Source of the DNA: Bryobacteraceae bacterium CoA2 C42 | GTDB taxonomy: Bacteria; Acidobacteriota; Terriglobia; Bryobacterales; Bryobacteraceae | Length of the DNA stretch: 52,370 nucleotides | NCBI GenBank assembly: GCA_019931245.1 | Contig: JAINDL010000016.1 | Location: forward strand, 1-52,370 | Direction: 5' to 3' | In this document: one piece after another, positions 13,893-45,735 of the stretch | Layout of the letters: every line of letters starts with the position of its first letter | Position numbering within the stretch: the first letter of the stretch is position 1 | Notes under the pieces: model-generated | Databases searched by the model: none | The model's input: the letters and a program-made list of their open reading frames with translations, nothing else | What the model was told of the DNA's origin: nothing | Position numbers and translations under genes: made by a program

Positions 13893-13927
13893 GAGCTCAG
13901 CGTTTTGGACGGCTCTCCCAAGTGCGA

Positions 13928-13936
13928 TGTTACACT
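13928..13936 (+). promoter_or_regulatory. lpdA: Extended -10 of lpdA at leaderless spacing
   Basis: TGT-TACACT ends 7 nt before the lpdA ATG, which would place the transcription start at the start codon. No Shine-Dalgarno sequence lies in those 7 nt. TTGGAC at 13905-13910 is too distant (20 nt) to be a normal -35. Confidence 0.45.
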
Positions 13937-13943
13937 GAAACCA

Positions 13944-15338
13944 ATGGCTTATGATCTGGTAATCATCGGCAGTGGGCCGGGTGGGTACTCCGCCGCGGTC
14001 CGGGCTGGACAGTACGGTCTGAAGACCGCGATTATTGAAAAGGCTCCGAAGATGGGGGGCACCTGTCTGCACGTCGGCTGCATTCCGACCAAGGCGCTGC
14101 TGCACAGCGCGGAGGTGTGGGACTATTTTCTGCATCCGGAGGAGCAGGGGGTGAGCTGTGAAAACCCGCGGCTGAACTACCCGGCCGTGCTGCAGCGCAA
14201 GACCACCATCATTAACAAGCACGCCAAGGGCGTGGAGATGTTGATGAAAAAGAACAAGGTGGAGGTGATCTGGGGCTTTGGCAAGATCGTGGGCCCGGGC
14301 CAGGTGGACGTGGTGACCAGTGAGGGCACCCGGCGGATCGAAGCCAAGAACATCATGATCGCCACCGGCTCCGAGGCGCGGATGATCCCGGGCCTGACGC
14401 CCGATGCCGACCGGATCCTGACCAATATCGAGATTCTGAATCTGACCGCGGTGCCGAAGTCGCTGGCCATTATCGGCGCGGGTGCGGTGGGGGTGGAGTT
14501 CGCCTCGATCTTCAAGCGGTTCGGCGCGGAAGTGACCGTGCTGGAGATGCTGCCGCGCGTGGTTCCGGTCGAGGACGAAGACGTCTCCCGGGAGCTCGAA
14601 AAGTACTTCCGCAAGATTGGCATTCGCGTCGAAACCGGCGCCAAGGCCGCCAACATTCAGCGGACCGAACAGGGCGTGTCGCTCGAGGTGACGCTGTCCA
14701 ACGGCAAGGTGGAGACGCTGCACGTTGAGAAGTTGCTCGTGGCGGTGGGCCGGAAGCCGAATACGGAATCGATTGGTCTTGAGAACACCAAGGCCGAGCT
14801 TGACCGCGGGTTCATCAAAGTCGGTCCCGATCAGCAGACGGCCGAACCGGGCGTGTACGCGATCGGCGATGTGGTGGCCGGAACGCCGCAACTGGCCCAT
14901 GTGGCTACGGCGGAAGGGCTGATTGCGGTCGCCAAGATCGCCGGGCGCGAGTATACGCCGATCAAGCGCAACCGCATTCCGGGCGCTACTTACACCGAGC
15001 CTGGCATCGGATCGGTCGGCTTGACCGAGGCGCAGGCCAAGGCGCAGGGCTATGACGTGAAGGTCGGCAAGTTCCCGTTCGTCGGCAACTCGAAGGCCAC
15101 TATTCTGGGCCACCACGAAGGCTTTGTGAAGGTGGTGAGCGATGCCAAGTACGGCGAGATCCTCGGCGTGCACATCATCGGCCCCCATGGCTACGAGTTG
15201 ATTGCCGAAGCGGTCGCCGCGATGGAAGCCGAGGCGACGGTCGACACAATGGTCAACACGATTCACGCCCATCCGACGCTGTATGAGGCGCTCGGCGAGG
15301 CGTTCAACTCCGTTTACGGGCAGGCGATCAACTTCTAA
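13944..15338 (+). CDS. lpdA: Dihydrolipoyl dehydrogenase (E3)
   Basis: This flavoprotein reoxidises dihydrolipoyl groups of 2-oxo-acid dehydrogenase complexes with NAD. The 464-residue product has the FAD motif IIGSGPGGYSAAVRAGQYG, the redox pair C41/C46 in GGTCLHVGCIPTKALL, an NAD-binding IIGAGAVGVEFASIFKRFG, the second FAD motif VYAIGDVVAG, and the C-terminal interface HAHPTLYEALGEAF with the catalytic His. The start at 13944 begins exactly at MAYDLVIIG. It is followed 3 nt later by lipB and then an E2 gene, a coherent lipoate-dependent unit. The E1 component is not in the window. Confidence 0.96.
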   Translation: MAYDLVIIGSGPGGYSAAVRAGQYGLKTAIIEKAPKMGGTCLHVGCIPTKALLHSAEVWDYFLHPEEQGVSCENPRLNYPAVLQRKTTIINKHAKGVEMLMKKNKVEVIWGFGKIVGPGQVDVVTSEGTRRIEAKNIMIATGSEARMIPGLTPDADRILTNIEILNLTAVPKSLAIIGAGAVGVEFASIFKRFGAEVTVLEMLPRVVPVEDEDVSRELEKYFRKIGIRVETGAKAANIQRTEQGVSLEVTLSNGKVETLHVEKLLVAVGRKPNTESIGLENTKAELDRGFIKVGPDQQTAEPGVYAIGDVVAGTPQLAHVATAEGLIAVAKIAGREYTPIKRNRIPGATYTEPGIGSVGLTEAQAKAQGYDVKVGKFPFVGNSKATILGHHEGFVKVVSDAKYGEILGVHIIGPHGYELIAEAVAAMEAEATVDTMVNTIHAHPTLYEALGEAFNSVYGQAINF

Positions 15339-19346: not shown

Positions 19347-20654
19347 CTACCTCCTTCCGATCGCGTAGAGCGCCTCGCCCGTCCGGATGTACAGCTCGCC
19401 GCCTACCGCCACGGGACTCGCCAGCGTATAGCCCTCGACGCGGCTCACCCCCAGAACCTTGAACTCCGGCCCGGCCTGCACCACGGTCGTCACGCCCTCT
19501 TCGTTGGTGCAGTACAGCTTGCCGTCGGCGAGCAGCGGCGAAGAGCTGTAGGTGCCCAACTCGACCCGCTGTCCCTCGTAAACCACCTTGCCGCTGGCAA
19601 TCTCCAGGCAGTTCATGATGCCCTTATCGTTGAGCACGTACAAATATTTGCCGTCGCTGGCCGGCGTCGGTACGTCCGGGCCGAGGTTGTTGGTCCAGAT
19701 CTCACTCTTGCCCGTCATGTCGCCCTTGCCGCCCGCCCGCAGCGCCAGAAAAGGCCGTCCCCGGCTCGCCCCCCAAACGACAATGTCGCCGACTACCACG
19801 GCCGACGCTATCGTCCGGTTCGCTGGATTTGCCCCTGGGTTAAACCCGCCGATCCGCCACAACTCCACCCCCGTCGATGGCTCATGGCCCGTCACGATAT
19901 CGCCGCCCGTGATGATCAGCTGTTTCTTCCCCTGGACTATCGCGATTTGCGGCGTCGAGTAGCTGTCCTTGGACTCCTTCTGCGCCGGCGCCGGGCGCTC
20001 GTGGCGCCAGAGCGTCTTGCCGGTCTTCTTATCGAGCGCCAGGATGTAGGACGGCTTCTCGGTAGTAAAGCCGTGAATCACGTTGAGATACAGCCGGTCA
20101 CCCTCGAGCAGCGGCGAGGAGGCGTAGCCGTGGTTGATGCCGATTTCACCGTAGTCGGCCACCAGATCGCGCTTCCAGACCTCTTTGCCCGCCGCCGTGT
20201 AGCAGCCGATGCGGGCGTGCCCGGTGGTCGTCCAGATGTGCTGGCCATCGGTAATCGGCGAGGGCGAGGCCGAATTCTGCTTGCGCCACAGCCGGTTCCC
20301 GTTGTCGATCGTGACGCGCCACTTCTCGCTGCCGTCCTTCCGCCGCAGCGCGAGCAAAAAAATCTTGTCATTGGTCGGCTCGCCCGCCCGGCGCAGGTTG
20401 CGCGTCTCGTAGGTGGCGCTGGCGAATCCCGCCTCGGCCGTGGTCACGTAGATCGTATCGCCCCAGATCACGGGCGTGGCCGCGCTCCAACTCGGCATCT
20501 TCGTCTTCCAGAGCAGTCCTTCTGATTCGCTCCACTGCACGGGCAGGTTCCTGGCCGTGGGCGCGTTGCCATGCTGCAGCGGCCCCCGCCACTGCGGCCA
20601 GTTCGTATCGGCGGCCATCAGCGCGCCGGCGGTTAACAGGAGTAGCCACTTCAT
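19347..20654 (-). CDS. Secreted PQQ-like beta-propeller protein
   Basis: The 435-residue product has a signal peptide (MKWLLLLTAGALMAA) and the WPQWRG motif common at the start of such proteins in Acidobacteria and Planctomycetes. At least six propeller blades follow, with repeats such as LLWKTKMPSWSAATPVIWGD, HARIGCYTAAGKEVWKRDL, ILALDKKTGKTLWRHERP, GKYLYVLNDKGIMNCLEIAS and KLYCTNEEGVTTVVQAGP. The fold is shared by BamB and quinoprotein dehydrogenases. No dehydrogenase active-site set is evident, so a binding or scaffold role is more likely. It is divergent from the PIG-L gene with 49 nt between starts. Confidence 0.86.
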   Translation of the reverse strand: MKWLLLLTAGALMAADTNWPQWRGPLQHGNAPTARNLPVQWSESEGLLWKTKMPSWSAATPVIWGDTIYVTTAEAGFASATYETRNLRRAGEPTNDKIFLLALRRKDGSEKWRVTIDNGNRLWRKQNSASPSPITDGQHIWTTTGHARIGCYTAAGKEVWKRDLVADYGEIGINHGYASSPLLEGDRLYLNVIHGFTTEKPSYILALDKKTGKTLWRHERPAPAQKESKDSYSTPQIAIVQGKKQLIITGGDIVTGHEPSTGVELWRIGGFNPGANPANRTIASAVVVGDIVVWGASRGRPFLALRAGGKGDMTGKSEIWTNNLGPDVPTPASDGKYLYVLNDKGIMNCLEIASGKVVYEGQRVELGTYSSSPLLADGKLYCTNEEGVTTVVQAGPEFKVLGVSRVEGYTLASPVAVGGELYIRTGEALYAIGRR

Positions 20655-20661
20655 GATCCAC

Positions 20662-20667
20662 AGTCTA
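20662..20667 (-). promoter_or_regulatory. -10 hexamer of the PQQ-propeller gene at leaderless spacing
   Basis: On the minus strand TAGACT is followed by 7 nt (GTGGATC) and then the ATG. There is no Shine-Dalgarno sequence in the gap. The spacing is the same as for lpdA. Confidence 0.4.
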
Positions 20668-20703
20668 TTACTACTCGCGGGTATCCGGGTAAACTAGGGA
20701 GGA

Positions 20704-26320: not shown

Positions 26321-26329
26321 TGGTACACT
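26321..26329 (+). promoter_or_regulatory. Extended -10 of the YjbR-like gene
   Basis: TGG-TACACT ends 9 nt before the ATG. The octamer TACACTGA is identical to that upstream of uppS and lpdA. Confidence 0.4.
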
Positions 26330-28296: not shown

Positions 28297-29865
28297 TCAG
28301 GGCCGGCCTTCAAACTCCTTCTGCGTTACCAGCGGCAAGCTCACCGTCGCCGTCTCCCCTTCGCCCACCTTTACCGCTGTGAGCCGGTTCTGCATCTGCC
28401 GCTGCCTCTCCTCGTCCATCTCGGCCACCATCTCGGCGGTCTCCAGCGCCAAGGCCTGGTACTCGCCCGGCGCCAGCCCACCCAGCCGAAACCGCCCCTG
28501 TTCATCGATCGCCGCTACCACCGGAGCGTTCGGCATCGGCCCGGTTAGCCACACCAGTCCCCCTTTTGCCCCCGTCACCTGACCACTCACCACCGCCGGC
28601 TTGGTTCCGAACAGGATCTCCACCGGCGCCGCCGCCTCCCCCGCCGTCAGATCCAGGCTCATCCGCGGCACCGGCTGGCCGCCCATCGTAATCGCCTTCA
28701 GGTAGGTGCCCGGCGGCGCCGTCACGCTCACCGGCAGGACATCGCGACCCACCCGCGCCAGCACAAAGGTGCCGTCCGGCTTACCGGTGGTTTCCACGAT
28801 CCCCAACCCGGCCCCACCCAGCATCACGCGCACCTTGGTCCAATCCGCCGGGCTCCCCGTATCCGTCCGCATCTGCCCCTGCACCGTCAGCGGCGCCCCG
28901 GCGAACAGCACCAGGTTCTCCACCGGCCGGTCGCTCAACTGCACCGTCGTCCGGCCTACCACCACCGGCGCACCCTGCCCGAACTGCACCACCAGCAGCG
29001 TGTAGGAGCCCGGCGGCAACCCCGCCGTCTCGAACGCCCCATCCCCCCGAACGCGCCCGCCCCCCCCGGCGAACCCGCCGCGGCCCATTTGCGCCATCCC
29101 CGCTCCTCCCGTCGTCACCATCACCTGGTAGCCCTCCCGCCCCCCGCCCGGAGCGGTCCCCTGCACGCGCCCGCGGATCCGTTGCATGGTCGTCCGCCGC
29201 TGCACAATCGTCAAGCCGGTCGCGTCCTGCCCGGCCAGCACCACCACCGGCGCCGCACTGCTCTCCTCTCGCGCCGAAGGATAGTAAGTGGCCGGATACC
29301 CATACTCCTGCGCGCTGCCGGGCGCCAGAAAACTTCCCTCCCGCCGCGCTACCAGGTAGTACCGCCCCGGCGCCACTCCCGCCAGCCGGAACTCGCCCAG
29401 ATCATTGGTGGCCACCCCGGGCGATGGCCCCAGCCGCGCCGCCGCCCGGCTGCCCCGCGCCGGAACCAGCGCCACAAACGCCCGCTCCACCGGGTCCCCG
29501 TCCTCGTCCACCACCCGCCCCGCCACCACGCTCTGCGGGCTCATCCGGAACTCAATCCCGCTCACCGTCTGCCCGGCCTCTACCTTCACGCGGGTCCGGT
29601 AAGCCGCCCGCAAAAATCCATTCCGCGTGGCCGAAAGCCGGTACTCGCCCGGCGCGGCCGGAATCCGGAACGCCCCGTCGGCTCCGGTCATCGCCTGCAC
29701 GGCGCCCCGCTCGGTGGAGAGCGTCACCAGCGCTTTCGCTACCGCCTCGCCTGTCATTCCGTGCACCACCCGGCCGCTCACGGCCCCCATCGGCGGCGCC
29801 TCCTGCGCAACACCCGTTCCCAGGGCAAACAAAAGGCAAAACAAGCGCCAACTTCCACGTCGCAT
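28297..29865 (-). CDS. Secreted carboxypeptidase-regulatory-like domain protein
   Basis: The 522-residue product has a signal peptide (MRRGSWRLFCLLFALGTGVA). Several transthyretin-like modules follow, typified by AVSGRVVHGMTGEAVAKALV, GAFRIPAAPGEYRLSATRNG, VVAGRVVDEDGDPVERAFVA, GEFRLAGVAPGRYYLVARRE and a last RFRLGGLAPGEYQALALE. Such modules are stable extracellular beta-sandwiches, and in this phylum often lie at the N terminus of receptors. Here no barrel follows. The start at 29865 is preferred because it begins the signal peptide and has a -10-like hexamer 7 nt upstream. The frame open to 30024 crosses the gyrA start. It is divergent from gyrA. Confidence 0.78.
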   Translation of the reverse strand: MRRGSWRLFCLLFALGTGVAQEAPPMGAVSGRVVHGMTGEAVAKALVTLSTERGAVQAMTGADGAFRIPAAPGEYRLSATRNGFLRAAYRTRVKVEAGQTVSGIEFRMSPQSVVAGRVVDEDGDPVERAFVALVPARGSRAAARLGPSPGVATNDLGEFRLAGVAPGRYYLVARREGSFLAPGSAQEYGYPATYYPSAREESSAAPVVVLAGQDATGLTIVQRRTTMQRIRGRVQGTAPGGGREGYQVMVTTGGAGMAQMGRGGFAGGGGRVRGDGAFETAGLPPGSYTLLVVQFGQGAPVVVGRTTVQLSDRPVENLVLFAGAPLTVQGQMRTDTGSPADWTKVRVMLGGAGLGIVETTGKPDGTFVLARVGRDVLPVSVTAPPGTYLKAITMGGQPVPRMSLDLTAGEAAAPVEILFGTKPAVVSGQVTGAKGGLVWLTGPMPNAPVVAAIDEQGRFRLGGLAPGEYQALALETAEMVAEMDEERQRQMQNRLTAVKVGEGETATVSLPLVTQKEFEGRP

Positions 29866-29872
29866 CTTTAAT

Positions 29873-29878
29873 AGAATA
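29873..29878 (-). promoter_or_regulatory. -10 hexamer at leaderless spacing, carboxypeptidase-regulatory-like gene
   Basis: TATTCT on the minus strand is followed by 7 nt (ATTAAAG) and the ATG. There is no strong Shine-Dalgarno sequence. It faces the gyrA promoter element 25 nt away. Confidence 0.4.
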
Positions 29879-29935: not shown

Positions 29936-32476
29936 TTGGCCGACGAACAGAATCCCAATCCGCCCGTCCCCGGCGCGAACAATACGGCTCTCATCCCCGT
30001 CAACATCGAAGACGAGATGCGCAAGTCGTATCTCGACTACGCCATGTCCGTCATCATCGGACGCGCGTTGCCCGATGTGCGCGACGGCTTGAAACCGGTG
30101 CATCGCCGCATCCTGTACGGCATGAGTGAACTCGGGCTCAGTTACAACCGCCCCACTCGCAAATCCGCCAAGATCGTCGGCGAAGTCATGGGTAAGTTCC
30201 ACCCGCACGGCGACAGCGCCATTTACGACGCCCTCGTCCGCATGGCCCAGCCCTTCTCGATGCGCTATCCCCTCGTCGATGGCCAGGGTAACTTCGGTTC
30301 GGTCGACGGCGATCCCCCCGCCGCCATGCGGTACACCGAAGCGCGGCTCACCAAAATCGCCGCCACCATGCTCGATGACATCGACAAGGAAACCGTCGAT
30401 TTCCGGGCCAACTACGACGATAGCGAACACGAACCCGAAGTCCTTCCCGCCCGCGTGCCGAACCTGCTCATCAACGGCAGCTCCGGCATCGCCGTCGGCA
30501 TGGCGACCAACATCCCGCCCCACAACATCCGCGAGATCATCGACGCCACCATTCTCCTCGTCAACAACCCCGCCGCCACCCTAGCCGAAGTCCTCGCCAT
30601 CGTCCCCGGGCCCGACTTTCCCACCGGCGGCTTTATCCTCGGCCGCTCGGGCATCCTCGACGCCTATAGCCGCGGCCGCGGCTCCATCAAGATGCGCGCC
30701 AAAGCCGACATCGAAAAGTCGGGCAAAGATCGCGAAGCCATCGTCGTCACCGAACTGCCCTATCAGGTCAACAAAGCCCGCATGATCGAGGCCACCGCCG
30801 GCCTCGTCAACGAGAAGAAGATCGAAGGCATCTCCGAGATCCGCGACGAATCCGACCGCGACGGCATGCGCATCGTCTTCGAACTCAAGCGCGGCGAACA
30901 GGCCGACATCGTGCTGAACAACCTGTACAAGCACACGCAGATGCAGATGAACTTCGGCGTCATCATGCTCTCGATCGTCAACGGCCAGCCCCGCGAACTC
31001 GGCATCGTCGACATGATCAAGCGGTTTATCGATCATCGCGTCGAAGTCGTCCGCCGGCGTACCAACTACCTGCTGCGCAAGGCCCGCGAGCGCGAACACA
31101 TTTTGCTCGGCTTCCGCCGCGCCCTGCAGAATCTCGATCAGGTCATCGCCATCATCCGCGCCTCGCGCACCCCGCGCGAAGCCCGCGACGGCCTGATGGC
31201 CTTTATCACCCCCGAAGAGGCCGCCGGCTACGCCGCCCTCGTCGACGCCACCGGCCCCCAGTTCACCGAACGCCAGGCCCAGGCCATCATCGAACTCCAA
31301 CTCCAGCGCCTCACCGGCATGGAGCAGGATAAGATCCTCAAGGAACTCGAGGAGATCCAGCGCATGATTGCCGAGTATCTCGAAATCCTCGGCTCGGAAA
31401 AGCGCCTGCGCGAAGTCATCACCGGCGAACTCGAGGAGATGCGCAAGGACTTCGGCGACGAACGCCGCACGCAGATCATCGAGGATACGGGCGAGATCCT
31501 GCTCGAAGATCTCATTCAACAGGAAGACGTTGCCATAACGGTTACCCGCGGCGGCTACCTCAAGCGCACCGCCGTCGATACCTACCGCCGGCAGACCCGC
31601 GGCGGCAAGGGCCGCATCGGCATGACCACGCGCCAGGAGGATGTCGTCGAGCACCTCATCATCGCCTCGACGCATAACTACCTGCTCATCTTCACCACCA
31701 AGGGCCGCCTCTACTGGCTCAAGAACTATGTCATTCCGGACTCCGGCACCGCCTCGAAGGGCAAGCACATCTCCGGCCTGATCAACCTCCAGCCCGACGA
31801 AGGCGTCAAGGCCTTCCTGCCGGTCAAGGAGTTCACCGCCGGCAAATACGTCATCATGGTCACCCGCAACGGCGTCATCAAGAAGTGCGAACTGACTGAG
31901 TTCGATAACCCCATGGCCCGCGGCATTATCGCCATCGCCCTCGACGAAGGCGACGAACTGATCCAGGCCATGATCTCCGATGGCAACAGCTTCGTCTTCT
32001 GCGGCACCCGCCAGGGCATGGCGATTCGCTTTGCCGAGAACGAGGTGCGGCCCATGGGCCGGCCCGCGCGCGGCGTCAAATCGATGGCGCTCGAAGTCGG
32101 CGACTACATCGTCGGCGCCGAGGTCACCGAGGCCGAAGGCCTCATGCTCGCCATCTCCGAGAACGGCTACGGCAAGCGCACCCCCATCGAAGACTACCGG
32201 CTCACGCATCGCGGCGGCTTCGGGGTCATCAACATGAAGACCACCAACAAAGTGGGTCATGTCATGGCTCTGATGAAGGTGACCGACAATACCGACCTCA
32301 TGATCATCACCGCCGAAGGCAAGATCATCCGCATCGAGTCCGGCGAAATCCGGCAGGCTGGCCGGTCGACCCAGGGCGTTCGTCTCGTCAAGATGGAGGA
32401 AGGCGACCGCGTCGCCGCCGCCTGCAAGGTGCCCGATTCCGGCCCCGAACCGGATGCCGAATCCGAAGTCCAGTAA
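29936..32476 (+). CDS. gyrA: DNA gyrase subunit A
   Basis: It is the DNA breakage-reunion subunit that introduces negative supercoils with GyrB. The 846-residue product has the catalytic Tyr133 in [12 protein letters not shown]. The quinolone-determining segment [20 protein letters not shown] has Ser94 and Asp98 in place, i.e. a sensitive-type sequence. The C-terminal DNA-wrapping propeller carries the GyrA box QTRGGKG (Q553), which separates it from ParC, and six-blade repeats follow. It starts at TTG 29936 with AAGGAG upstream. gyrB is not in the window. larE follows 9 nt later. Confidence 0.96.
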
Positions 32477-32479
32477 GAT
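32474..32479 (+). promoter_or_regulatory. larE: -10 hexamer of larE at leaderless spacing
   Basis: TAAGAT overlaps the gyrA TAA stop and is followed by exactly 6 nt before the larE ATG. No Shine-Dalgarno sequence is present. larE could therefore have its own leaderless transcript as well as gyrA read-through. Confidence 0.35.
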
Positions 32480-32485
32480 AAGCTC

Positions 32486-33364
32486 ATGGCTTCCCTGGTA
32501 CAACTCGGTTCCCCTTCCATCGATGCCGTGGCGCTGGCAAGCAAAGAGCAGTCGCTGTTTGCCAACCTCCGCGGCCTCGGGCGGGTGATCATCGCCTACT
32601 CCGGCGGCACCGACTCGGCCTACCTGGCCTGGGCCGCCGTCCAAGCTCTCGGGGATAACGCCGTCGCTATCACGGCCGACTCGGCCTCCATTCCCGCCTC
32701 TCACAAACGCGACGCCGAAGCCTTCGCCCGCCAGTACGGCATCCGTCACGAGTACATCGAAACCTTTGAGTTCGACAACCCGGATTACGTCCGGAACGAT
32801 AAGAACCGCTGCTTCCACTGCAAGGACGAACTGTTCACGCGCCTCGACGCCGTCTGCCTCGAACGTGGAATCGAAAACGTCGTCTACGGCGTCAACGTCG
32901 ACGACCTCGGCGACTGGCGTCCCGGCCAGGGCGCCGCCAAGGCCCACAACGTCAAAGCGCCGCTCGTTGAAGCCGGCCTCACCAAGGCCGAAATCCGCGA
33001 ACTGTCCCGCCGCGCCGGTCTGCCCACCTGGGACCGCCCGGCCAGCGCCTGTCTCAGTTCCCGCATCCCCTACGGCACGGCCGTCACCAAAGAGGTGATC
33101 AAAACCGTCGAAGACGGCGAAGAGGCCATCAAAGCCCTCGGCTTCCGCCAGTATCGCGTCCGCTTCCACGGCGACCTCGTCCGCCTCGAATTCGCCACCG
33201 ACGAACTCCCCCGCGCCTTCACCCCGGAGATGGCCCTCCGCTTCAAGGACATCTTCAAACCGCTCGGGTTCCACTACGTCACCATCGACTGCGAAGGCTA
33301 CCGCCAAGGCGCCATGAACGAAGCGATAGGATTATCCCATGCTTCGTCGCACGCTACTGCTTAG
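32486..33364 (+). CDS. larE: LarE-type sacrificial sulfur insertase
   Basis: Known LarE proteins adenylate a carboxylated nicotinic acid mononucleotide derivative and donate their own cysteine sulfur, building the nickel-pincer cofactor of lactate racemase. The 292-residue product has the PP-loop SGGTDS (39-44), a CFHCK motif (109-113) and RPASACLSSRIPYG, in which C189 matches the sacrificial cysteine. No larA, larB or larC is present. Its last 26 nt overlap the start of an enolase-superfamily gene, so the two are probably co-translated. A generic PP-loop sulfur transferase is the alternative, though the cysteine context favours LarE. Confidence 0.88.
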   Translation: MASLVQLGSPSIDAVALASKEQSLFANLRGLGRVIIAYSGGTDSAYLAWAAVQALGDNAVAITADSASIPASHKRDAEAFARQYGIRHEYIETFEFDNPDYVRNDKNRCFHCKDELFTRLDAVCLERGIENVVYGVNVDDLGDWRPGQGAAKAHNVKAPLVEAGLTKAEIRELSRRAGLPTWDRPASACLSSRIPYGTAVTKEVIKTVEDGEEAIKALGFRQYRVRFHGDLVRLEFATDELPRAFTPEMALRFKDIFKPLGFHYVTIDCEGYRQGAMNEAIGLSHASSHATA

Positions 33365-35889: not shown

Positions 35890-35895
35890 CACACT
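35890..35895 (+). promoter_or_regulatory. -10-like hexamer at leaderless spacing before the antitoxin gene
   Basis: CACACT, preceded by TGT, is followed by exactly 6 nt before the ATG. No Shine-Dalgarno sequence occurs. The same hexamer and spacing precede the TPR gene at 45.6 kb. Confidence 0.35.
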
Positions 35896-35901
35896 GGCGG
35901 T

Positions 35902-36156
35902 ATGACGATCGAGATTTCCGCCGAAGACGCTCAGATGCTCGAGTCGCTCGTCGCCTCGGGCCGTTATGAATCCATCGCCTCCTGCGTCCATGCCGCTCTC
36001 TCCGGACTCGCCGGCCGGTATGATGAAGCCGCTGCCGCCCACATTGACGAAGGGCTCGGTCAATTGGATCGGGGAGAGGGCCGGTCGCTCGACGAGGTCC
36101 TGCTGACTCTTGACCGCCGCAAGGCTGCCTGGCGCCAAAACAACGCCGCCTCGTGA
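35902..36156 (+). CDS. ParD/CopG-like antitoxin
   Basis: The 84-residue product starts MTIEISAEDAQMLESLVASG followed by RYESIASCVHAALSGL, a ribbon-helix-helix DNA-binding domain typical of ParD-family antitoxins. An acidic tail (HIDEGLGQLDRGEGRSLDEV) would wrap the toxin. It presumably neutralises the downstream ParE-like toxin and represses its own promoter. The stop overlaps the toxin's GTG start (GTGA), the usual coupling. The start at 35902 is preferred because the fold begins there. The upstream frame is antisense-like readthrough of the previous gene. Confidence 0.85.
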   Translation: MTIEISAEDAQMLESLVASGRYESIASCVHAALSGLAGRYDEAAAAHIDEGLGQLDRGEGRSLDEVLLTLDRRKAAWRQNNAAS

Positions 36157-42910: not shown

Positions 42911-42918
42911 GCTGCGTT

Positions 42919-42928
42919 ATGCTATCAG
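42919..42928. promoter_or_regulatory. Overlapping divergent -10 elements, ankyrin and sulfatase genes
   Basis: The 25-nt gap contains TATCAG (42923-42928, preceded by TGC) 7 nt before the sulfatase ATG. On the other strand TAGCAT (42919-42924, preceded by TGA) is 8 nt before the ankyrin ATG. The two hexamers share two base pairs, so polymerases could not occupy both at once. Confidence 0.35.
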
Positions 42929-42935
42929 GACTGTC

Positions 42936-45600: not shown

Positions 45601-45606
45601 AGTGTG
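45601..45606 (-). promoter_or_regulatory. -10-like hexamer at leaderless spacing before the TPR gene
   Basis: CACACT on the minus strand is followed by 6 nt (CAGGGC) and the ATG, with only a weak AGGG that is too close to be a normal ribosome-binding site. Confidence 0.35.
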
Positions 45607-45726: not shown

Positions 45727-45735
45727 TGGTAGAGT
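45727..45735 (+). promoter_or_regulatory. Extended -10 of the large receptor gene at leaderless spacing
   Basis: TGG-TAGAGT is followed by exactly 6 nt (GGCGCG) before the ATG. There is no Shine-Dalgarno sequence. The predicted transcription start falls on the start codon. Confidence 0.4.

Follow-up and report, generated by a model that had tools for sequence, protein, structure and literature searches.

A hexamer of the form TANNNT stands just upstream of many start codons in the genome of Bryobacteraceae bacterium CoA2 C42 (Acidobacteriota; assembly GCA_019931245.1). We studied it in a stretch of 52,370 nucleotides (contig JAINDL010000016.1, positions 1 to 52,370; hereafter the window), where it precedes, among others, a larE-like and an lpdA-like gene, and in a larger sample of the same genome. 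These hexamers are very probably -10 elements placed for leaderless or near-leaderless mRNAs, and about 12% of the genes in this genome would be of the leaderless type beyond chance. Such expression had been proposed in an original prediction made from the window, and it is supported by a peak of the motif at a fixed distance from the start codon, by the sharp lower edge of this peak, by control replicons, and by hexamers kept together with the N-terminus in nearer orthologues while their flanks change. In several divergent gene pairs two facing elements share a very short gap; this arrangement is so far clear only in this genus and is the part most worth following.

In the mechanism that we propose, -10 elements of the form TAnAMT, often with a G two bases upstream, would belong to housekeeping-type promoters. 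Transcription would begin at the start codon or a few bases before it, giving an mRNA with no leader or with a leader of a few bases, and translation would proceed without a Shine-Dalgarno helix, by ribosomes binding the 5'-terminal start codon. Both the polymerase start at these sites and the use of the leaderless end by the ribosome are what we infer from sequence.

The source genome comprises 6.07 Mb in 237 contigs, and the GC content of the window is 64.8%. Counts were made in 0.97 Mb of this genome (about one-sixth), taken in stretches and including the window, which gave 702 usable genes. Genes were called with a codon-pair model that does not use upstream signals; the gap is the number of nucleotides between the end of the hexamer and the start codon, and the chance level was taken from 200 dinucleotide shuffles of the upstream regions.

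TANNNT was found at gap 6 or 7 in 60 of the 702 genes, against 11.1 +/- 3.3 in the shuffled regions (maximum 22 in 200 shuffles). The count at each distance, which had been proposed as a check together with the claim that the spacing is not due to chance, gave a sharp peak at gaps 6-9 with a hard lower edge, and bears that claim out: 35 genes had the hexamer at gap 6, 25 at gap 7, and about 5 at each position further upstream. Over gaps 5-9 it preceded 15.8% of genes versus 3.8% expected. The peak at gap 6/7 persisted without the window genes (56/662) and under other rules for choosing starts (longest open reading frame, 54/698; first ATG, 49/696), and the largest excess was that of divergent genes (30/206 against 4.4 shuffled).

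Other hexamers at gap 6 showed no excess (TTNNNT, 5 versus 6.9; AANNNT, 9 versus 7.8) or at most a slight one (CANNNT, 11 versus 8.2). GANNNT was raised (22 versus 9.0), possibly owing to purine-rich Shine-Dalgarno-like sequence. Run through the same pipeline, 300 kb of Sinorhizobium meliloti pSymB (62% GC), the negative control, gave 2/255 genes at gap 6/7, and 200 kb of a Deinococcus deserti plasmid, the positive control, gave 10/145.

An expectation-maximization (EM) fit seeded with TANNNT returned a G at -2 (0.65), followed by T, A, any base, A, A or C, and T; in shape the motif is an extended -10 promoter. The fitted gap distribution had its mode at 6 (0.25), fell to 0.023 at gap 5 and 0.004 at gap 4, and decayed slowly above 6. 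In the usual -10 geometry, +1 falls on the start codon when the gap is 6. The distance of the signal is tied to the start codon by this mode and by the sharp lower edge, which is expected if transcription cannot begin inside the gene. A site scoring 5 bits or more stood at gap 5-9 before 14.9% of the genes, but before only 0.9% of 4157 internal in-frame ATGs.

Genes with good Shine-Dalgarno sites had been said to place their -10 element further away. The count agrees: at gap 5-9, a site scoring 6 bits or more preceded 2/108 genes with a Shine-Dalgarno-like 5-mer versus 70/569 genes without one, although this separation is partly forced, as the two elements overlap in position and occupy the same bases. 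The 16S tail of this genome, GGATCACCTCCTTT, has an intact anti-Shine-Dalgarno sequence, so ordinary Shine-Dalgarno initiation would still be possible. Loss of this sequence as a cause was rejected, the tail being intact in all five 16S loci inspected (six were retrieved).

All eight hexamers named in the original prediction were found at their distances by direct scan. Five of them (before larE, the receptor gene, lpdA, the PQQ gene and the carboxypeptidase-regulatory-like gene) match TANNNT, while two read CACACT and one TATCAG; the CACACT cases, and above all TATCAG, are weaker. The five, with the genes on which the comparisons below are based, are:

32474-32479, plus strand: TAAGAT, gap 6 before larE; its TA doubles as the gyrA stop codon
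32486-33364, plus strand: larE-like gene, predicted leaderless (Pfam match NAD_synthase; the name larE comes from the original prediction)
13931-13936, plus strand: TACACT, gap 7 before the lpdA ATG; conserved in same-genus loci
13944-15338, plus strand: lpdA-like gene, pyridine nucleotide-disulphide oxidoreductase
20662-20667, minus strand: TAGACT, gap 7 before the PQQ/BamB-like gene; present in same-genus loci, core kept in genome G009
19347-20654, minus strand: PQQ-repeat gene
29873-29878, minus strand: TATTCT, gap 7 before the carboxypeptidase-regulatory-like gene (ATG 29865); hexamer identical in G009
45730-45735, plus strand: TAGAGT, gap 6 before the TonB-type receptor ATG 45742 (putative start); unmatched in the G009 C23 stretch

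The larE of the window has its closest matches in named records among metagenome-assembled Acidobacteria, Bryobacterales among them. The comparison returned 39 loci, of which 21 acidobacterial ones with a match reaching the N-terminus form, with the window, a set of 22 nearer loci; L081 and L083, whose match falls short of the N-terminus, and L085-L100 (archaea and one Methylomirabilota) were excluded. TANNNT precedes the gene in 22/22, at gap 6 in 16 loci, 7 in four, 8 in one and 11 in one, mostly in front of a conserved MA(T/S/A)LV-type N-terminus. Upstream of larE lies gyrA in 11/22; it was not found in the retrieved flank of the other 11 (the flank is short in L069 and L076), where the hexamer is TATAAT in 8 loci and otherwise TATACT, TACTCT or TATAGT.

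For lpdA, TACACT is present in 13/13 same-genus loci with a readable N-terminus (own locus counted), at gap 7 in 6 and gap 8 in 7; L111 and L115 (cut) and L124 and L125 (match not from residue 1) were excluded. For the PQQ gene, L138 (cut) was excluded, as were L139-L150, which belong to other families or are paralogues within the genus at about 50% identity. All 12 same-genus orthologous loci with a readable N-terminus carry TAGACT or TAAACT ahead of an in-frame start (ATG or GTG), eight of them at gap 6 and four at gap 7. On the syntenic contig of G009, where 36/40 window genes could be aligned, the T, A and T of the hexamers of nine TANNNT genes are identical at 26/27 sites versus 782/985 other upstream sites (Fisher p 0.017).

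Several observations weigh against leaderless expression, or limit its reach. TANNNT is also above background at gaps 8-15. No -35 element was found beside the hexamers, a match of at least 4 to TTGACA occurring in 20% of the 60 motif genes versus 12.6% of 1072 control positions (Mann-Whitney p 0.40). In a second family of the order (L116-L123), seven loci have TANNNT 11 nt before the aligned lpdA ATG, and one has it at 15. Among distant larE genes (42-57% identity), whose starts are uncertain, TANNNT stands at gap 6-9 before a nearby in-frame start in only 3/29 loci versus 3.8 by chance, and a larE promoter conserved across the phylum is accordingly unsupported. Finally, G019, from the same order, shows a weak excess at gap 6/7 (8/228, 3.5% versus 1.4% expected).

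Among the alternatives, the one that survives best holds that the promoter merely adjoins the gene and that translation uses a minimal leader of about 2-9 nt. The enrichment reaching to gap 15 speaks for it, as do the change of the lpdA gap from 7-8 in the genus to 11-15 in another family and gene 20704, with TAAACT at gap 8 and GGAGG at -6. We nevertheless regard it as a rather unlikely account, because the modal gap of 6 places +1 on the start codon and 16/22 nearer larE loci have exactly this gap. The shift of the lpdA gap between families suggests a change between a leaderless mRNA and a short leader, and, since gaps 8-15 are enriched as well, some mRNAs may carry leaders of 2-9 nt rather than none.

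It is improbable that the hexamers are ordinary -10 elements before misplaced start codons, with a normal leader separating them from a true start further downstream. Starts called from sequence are uncertain, and for three of the eight genes of the original prediction the gene finder picked another start: 45793 rather than 45742, TTG at 29832 rather than 29865, and the next ATG, 45588, rather than 45594. With called starts only, TANNNT stands at gap 6/7 in 4/40 window genes (larE, lpdA, the PQQ gene and the gene starting at 33339). However, with the given starts the alignments of the larE and lpdA proteins begin at residue 1, and mixed misplacement would not yield a maximum at exactly 6 that breaks off sharply below.

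An operon artefact, in which closely spaced upstream genes would supply the TA of the hexamer with their stop codons, deserves hardly any weight. Although the TAAGAT of larE does open with the gyrA stop codon, an upstream stop is used in only 4/29 co-directional genes with the hexamer at gap 6/7, and the excess is highest in divergent genes. Moreover, the larE hexamer is retained in L064 and L065, in which gyrA ends 13 nt further upstream, and TATAAT or a similar hexamer stands where gyrA was not found; on the co-directional stop counts and the larE loci this candidate was rejected. Chance or base composition, to which one might appeal because start regions contain more AT than the genome as a whole (65% GC), TANNNT is short and loose, and only eight cases had been named, two of them CACACT and one TATCAG, is next to impossible for the whole set in view of the shuffles, the missing TTNNNT and AANNNT peaks, the flat S. 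meliloti control and the hexamers kept in nearer orthologues, even if single genes may still be due to chance.

Leaderless genes are a known kind, already predicted for this phylum and here supported in a new genome. In 3/3 Acidobacteria genomes, Zheng et al. (2011; PMC3160421) put the predicted share of leaderless genes at 9.7-19.4% (their Table 2); in high-GC genomes they placed TANNNT some 12 bp before the start. The signal of their TA-led genes, TANNNT-like and some 10-12 bp ahead of the start codon, is the one in excess here, and a leaderless-type excess of about 12% fits their range. Their genome set dates from 2010, and the main text uses neither the word divergent nor the word bidirectional. 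In their account only operon-proximal genes can be leaderless, whereas here the hexamer stands at gap 6/7 in 17/267 genes that overlap a co-directional upstream gene or lie at most 30 nt from it. Zhong et al. (2025; PMC12340547) described, for Deinococcus-Thermus, TANNNT adjoining the open reading frame and identified it experimentally as a promoter for leaderless mRNA; this concerns another phylum and about 30% of open reading frames, and the term Acidobacteri does not occur in the main text.

Leaderless usage looks patchy within the phylum. In 100-kb samples from eight acidobacterial genomes, TANNNT stood at gap 6/7 in 8/72 (G058), 4/70 (G069), 4/79 (G078), 5/80 (G035) and 4/68 (G049) genes; it was absent or at chance level in G051 (0/60), G074 (1/75) and G034 (0/70; L280-L284, L295-L304 for these three), and eight samples of this size are too small to map the distribution. 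In the open-licence literature we found no mapped transcript starts for this mostly uncultured group, in which the counts and the conservation support leaderless expression as a regular mode. In practice, the hexamer can help to correct gene starts, and expression constructs should not presume a Shine-Dalgarno leader.

The genes lpdA, PQQ and sulfatase each belong to a divergent pair, with starts 51, 49 and 25 bp apart, respectively, a fact that had gone unremarked in the original prediction. The shared regions, with the hexamer that faces the PQQ gene, are:

13893-13943, both strands: divergent region of 51 bp between the POTRA gene (minus strand) and lpdA, with a clear -10 toward lpdA only
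20655-20703, both strands: divergent region of 49 bp between the PQQ gene and the PIG-L gene, with a -10-like hexamer toward each start
20690-20695, plus strand: TAAACT, gap 8 before ATG 20704 (PIG-L family), facing the PQQ-gene hexamer
42911-42935, both strands: region of 25 bp between an ankyrin-repeat gene (minus strand, TAGCAT at gap 8) and the sulfatase gene (TATCAG at gap 7); neither core is intact in G009

The start of the POTRA gene, the partner of lpdA, is poorly fixed. Of the ankyrin/sulfatase pair, the two halves match 10 kb apart in G009, where the TATCAG is not kept and the first T of the facing TAGCAT is also lost; a single match spans both halves in G010, G001, G006 and G012. 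Both facing hexamers of the PQQ pair are retained in G006 and G012 (48 bp between the ATGs) and also in G009, with the spacing of the window; in G009 the codon at the position of the partner ATG, 20704, reads ACG. The PIG-L gene itself has, in addition to TAAACT, a perfect GGAGG at -6, and all of these are kept in G009.

Starts lie 10-59 bp apart in 27 of the 103 divergent pairs of the sample, compared with 1/39 on pSymB, 0/27 on the D. deserti plasmid, 1/8 in a 50-kb stretch of Escherichia coli that entered this comparison only, and 2/31 in G019. TANNNT stands at gap 5-9 on 33/54 sides of these short pairs, against 4.1 +/- 1.9 in shuffled gaps (maximum 10 in 200 shuffles), on 20/136 sides of wider pairs and on 3/16 sides where the start calls overlap. 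Predicted elements scoring 4 bits or more stood at gap 5-9 on each side of 10/27 short pairs and of 0/68 wide pairs; pair scoring matched 35/54 sides of the short pairs in all (25 + 10). In the class of 16-28 bp, the hexamers of the two strands overlap or abut in several pairs.

The excess of short divergent pairs was not replicated elsewhere, the pairs being too few: G019 gave 2 short pairs of 31 with 0/4 sides, the pooled larE loci with G009 gave 5 of 28 with 3/10 sides (side counts for G019 and the pooled loci are lower bounds where both sides of a pair match), and the eight samples from the phylum gave 5 of 100.

The clearest pair lies outside the window (L056:890-925) and consists of a gene for an HlyD-type membrane-fusion protein and a divergent gene for a 183-aa protein; it was compared over L056 and L306-L310. 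In this genome and in G010, G009 and G001 the gap is 36 bp and each hexamer lies 6 nt from its ATG. In G006 and G012 it is 22 bp, and both hexamers still stand 6 nt from both ATGs, overlapping as ACTGTATCAT; in random 22-mers of 65% GC, such an arrangement of both hexamers relative to the ATGs at both ends arises in 0.09% of draws. The plus-side hexamer is again at gap 6 in G007, where the minus-side start is putative.

The simplest account would be that short divergent gaps are possible since neither gene needs a leader. The case seems to us evenly poised that a sizeable share of the divergent pairs in the genus is driven by one compact promoter, leader-free and bidirectional, of about 16-58 bp. 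In such a promoter two -10 elements would face away from each other or overlap, both coding sequences would begin exactly at the transcription starts, and the regulatory region would amount to one RNA polymerase footprint. If this is true, the same layout would let genes such as larE retain their own promoter within the end of the upstream gene, and the divergent pairs would provide natural bidirectional promoters of minimal size, with coinciding transcription and translation starts on both strands.

Bidirectional promoters with shared or overlapping -10 elements have been described in E. coli by Warman et al. (2026; PMC12825309), with divergent starts mostly 18 bp apart, but also 10 and 23. 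The pairs described here likewise have two opposite-strand -10 elements, in our case predicted, in a very short stretch. That work concerns E. coli, and its main text contains neither the word leaderless nor the term start codon; here, the distance between the transcript starts would equal that between the start codons. Overlapping -10 elements with a mapped leaderless mRNA on one side are known from the csoR-cueA divergon of Bradyrhizobium (PMC5057107), and in Mycobacterium tuberculosis closely juxtaposed divergent promoters have been called common, prpD and its divergent regulator being both leaderless (PMC3898074). These are single cases from other phyla, and how many leaderless promoters lie in short divergent gaps across a genome is not stated in the passages concerned. 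In the open-licence literature we found no paper presenting divergent leaderless pairs as a common layout.

The remaining hexamers of the window are the three weaker ones of the original prediction and two others:

42923-42928, plus strand: TATCAG, gap 7 before the sulfatase ATG 42936; not TANNNT, not conserved in G009, doubtful
35890-35895, plus strand: CACACT, gap 6 before ATG 35902 ('parD'), weaker candidate
45601-45606, minus strand: CACACT, gap 6 before the TPR gene ATG 45594; CANACT in orthologues
33327-33332, plus strand: TAGGAT, gap 6 before the mandelate-racemase-like gene (start 33339), within the end of larE
26324-26329, plus strand: TACACT, gap 9 before ATG 26339

The sulfatase case had been put forward with a 'perhaps', and this caution was appropriate: TATCAG is present at gap 7, but with its departure from TANNNT and its loss in G009 it is a weak candidate. 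No Pfam match was found for the gene at 35902-36156, and the name parD is thus tentative. The TPR gene keeps CANACT at gap 6 in 4/7 orthologues. The motif scores are 8.6 bits for lpdA, 8.3 for the receptor gene, 8.1 for the PQQ gene and 6.0 for larE, followed by 5.2 for gene 35902, 4.9 for the carboxypeptidase-regulatory-like gene, 4.4 for the sulfatase gene and 3.5 for the TPR gene; they are not independent of the fit, which took in the window genes with coinciding called starts. The TAGGAT before 33339 had been overlooked, and its conservation in near relatives is confounded by the larE coding sequence. The TACACT before ATG 26339 is kept in G009 amid changed flanks.

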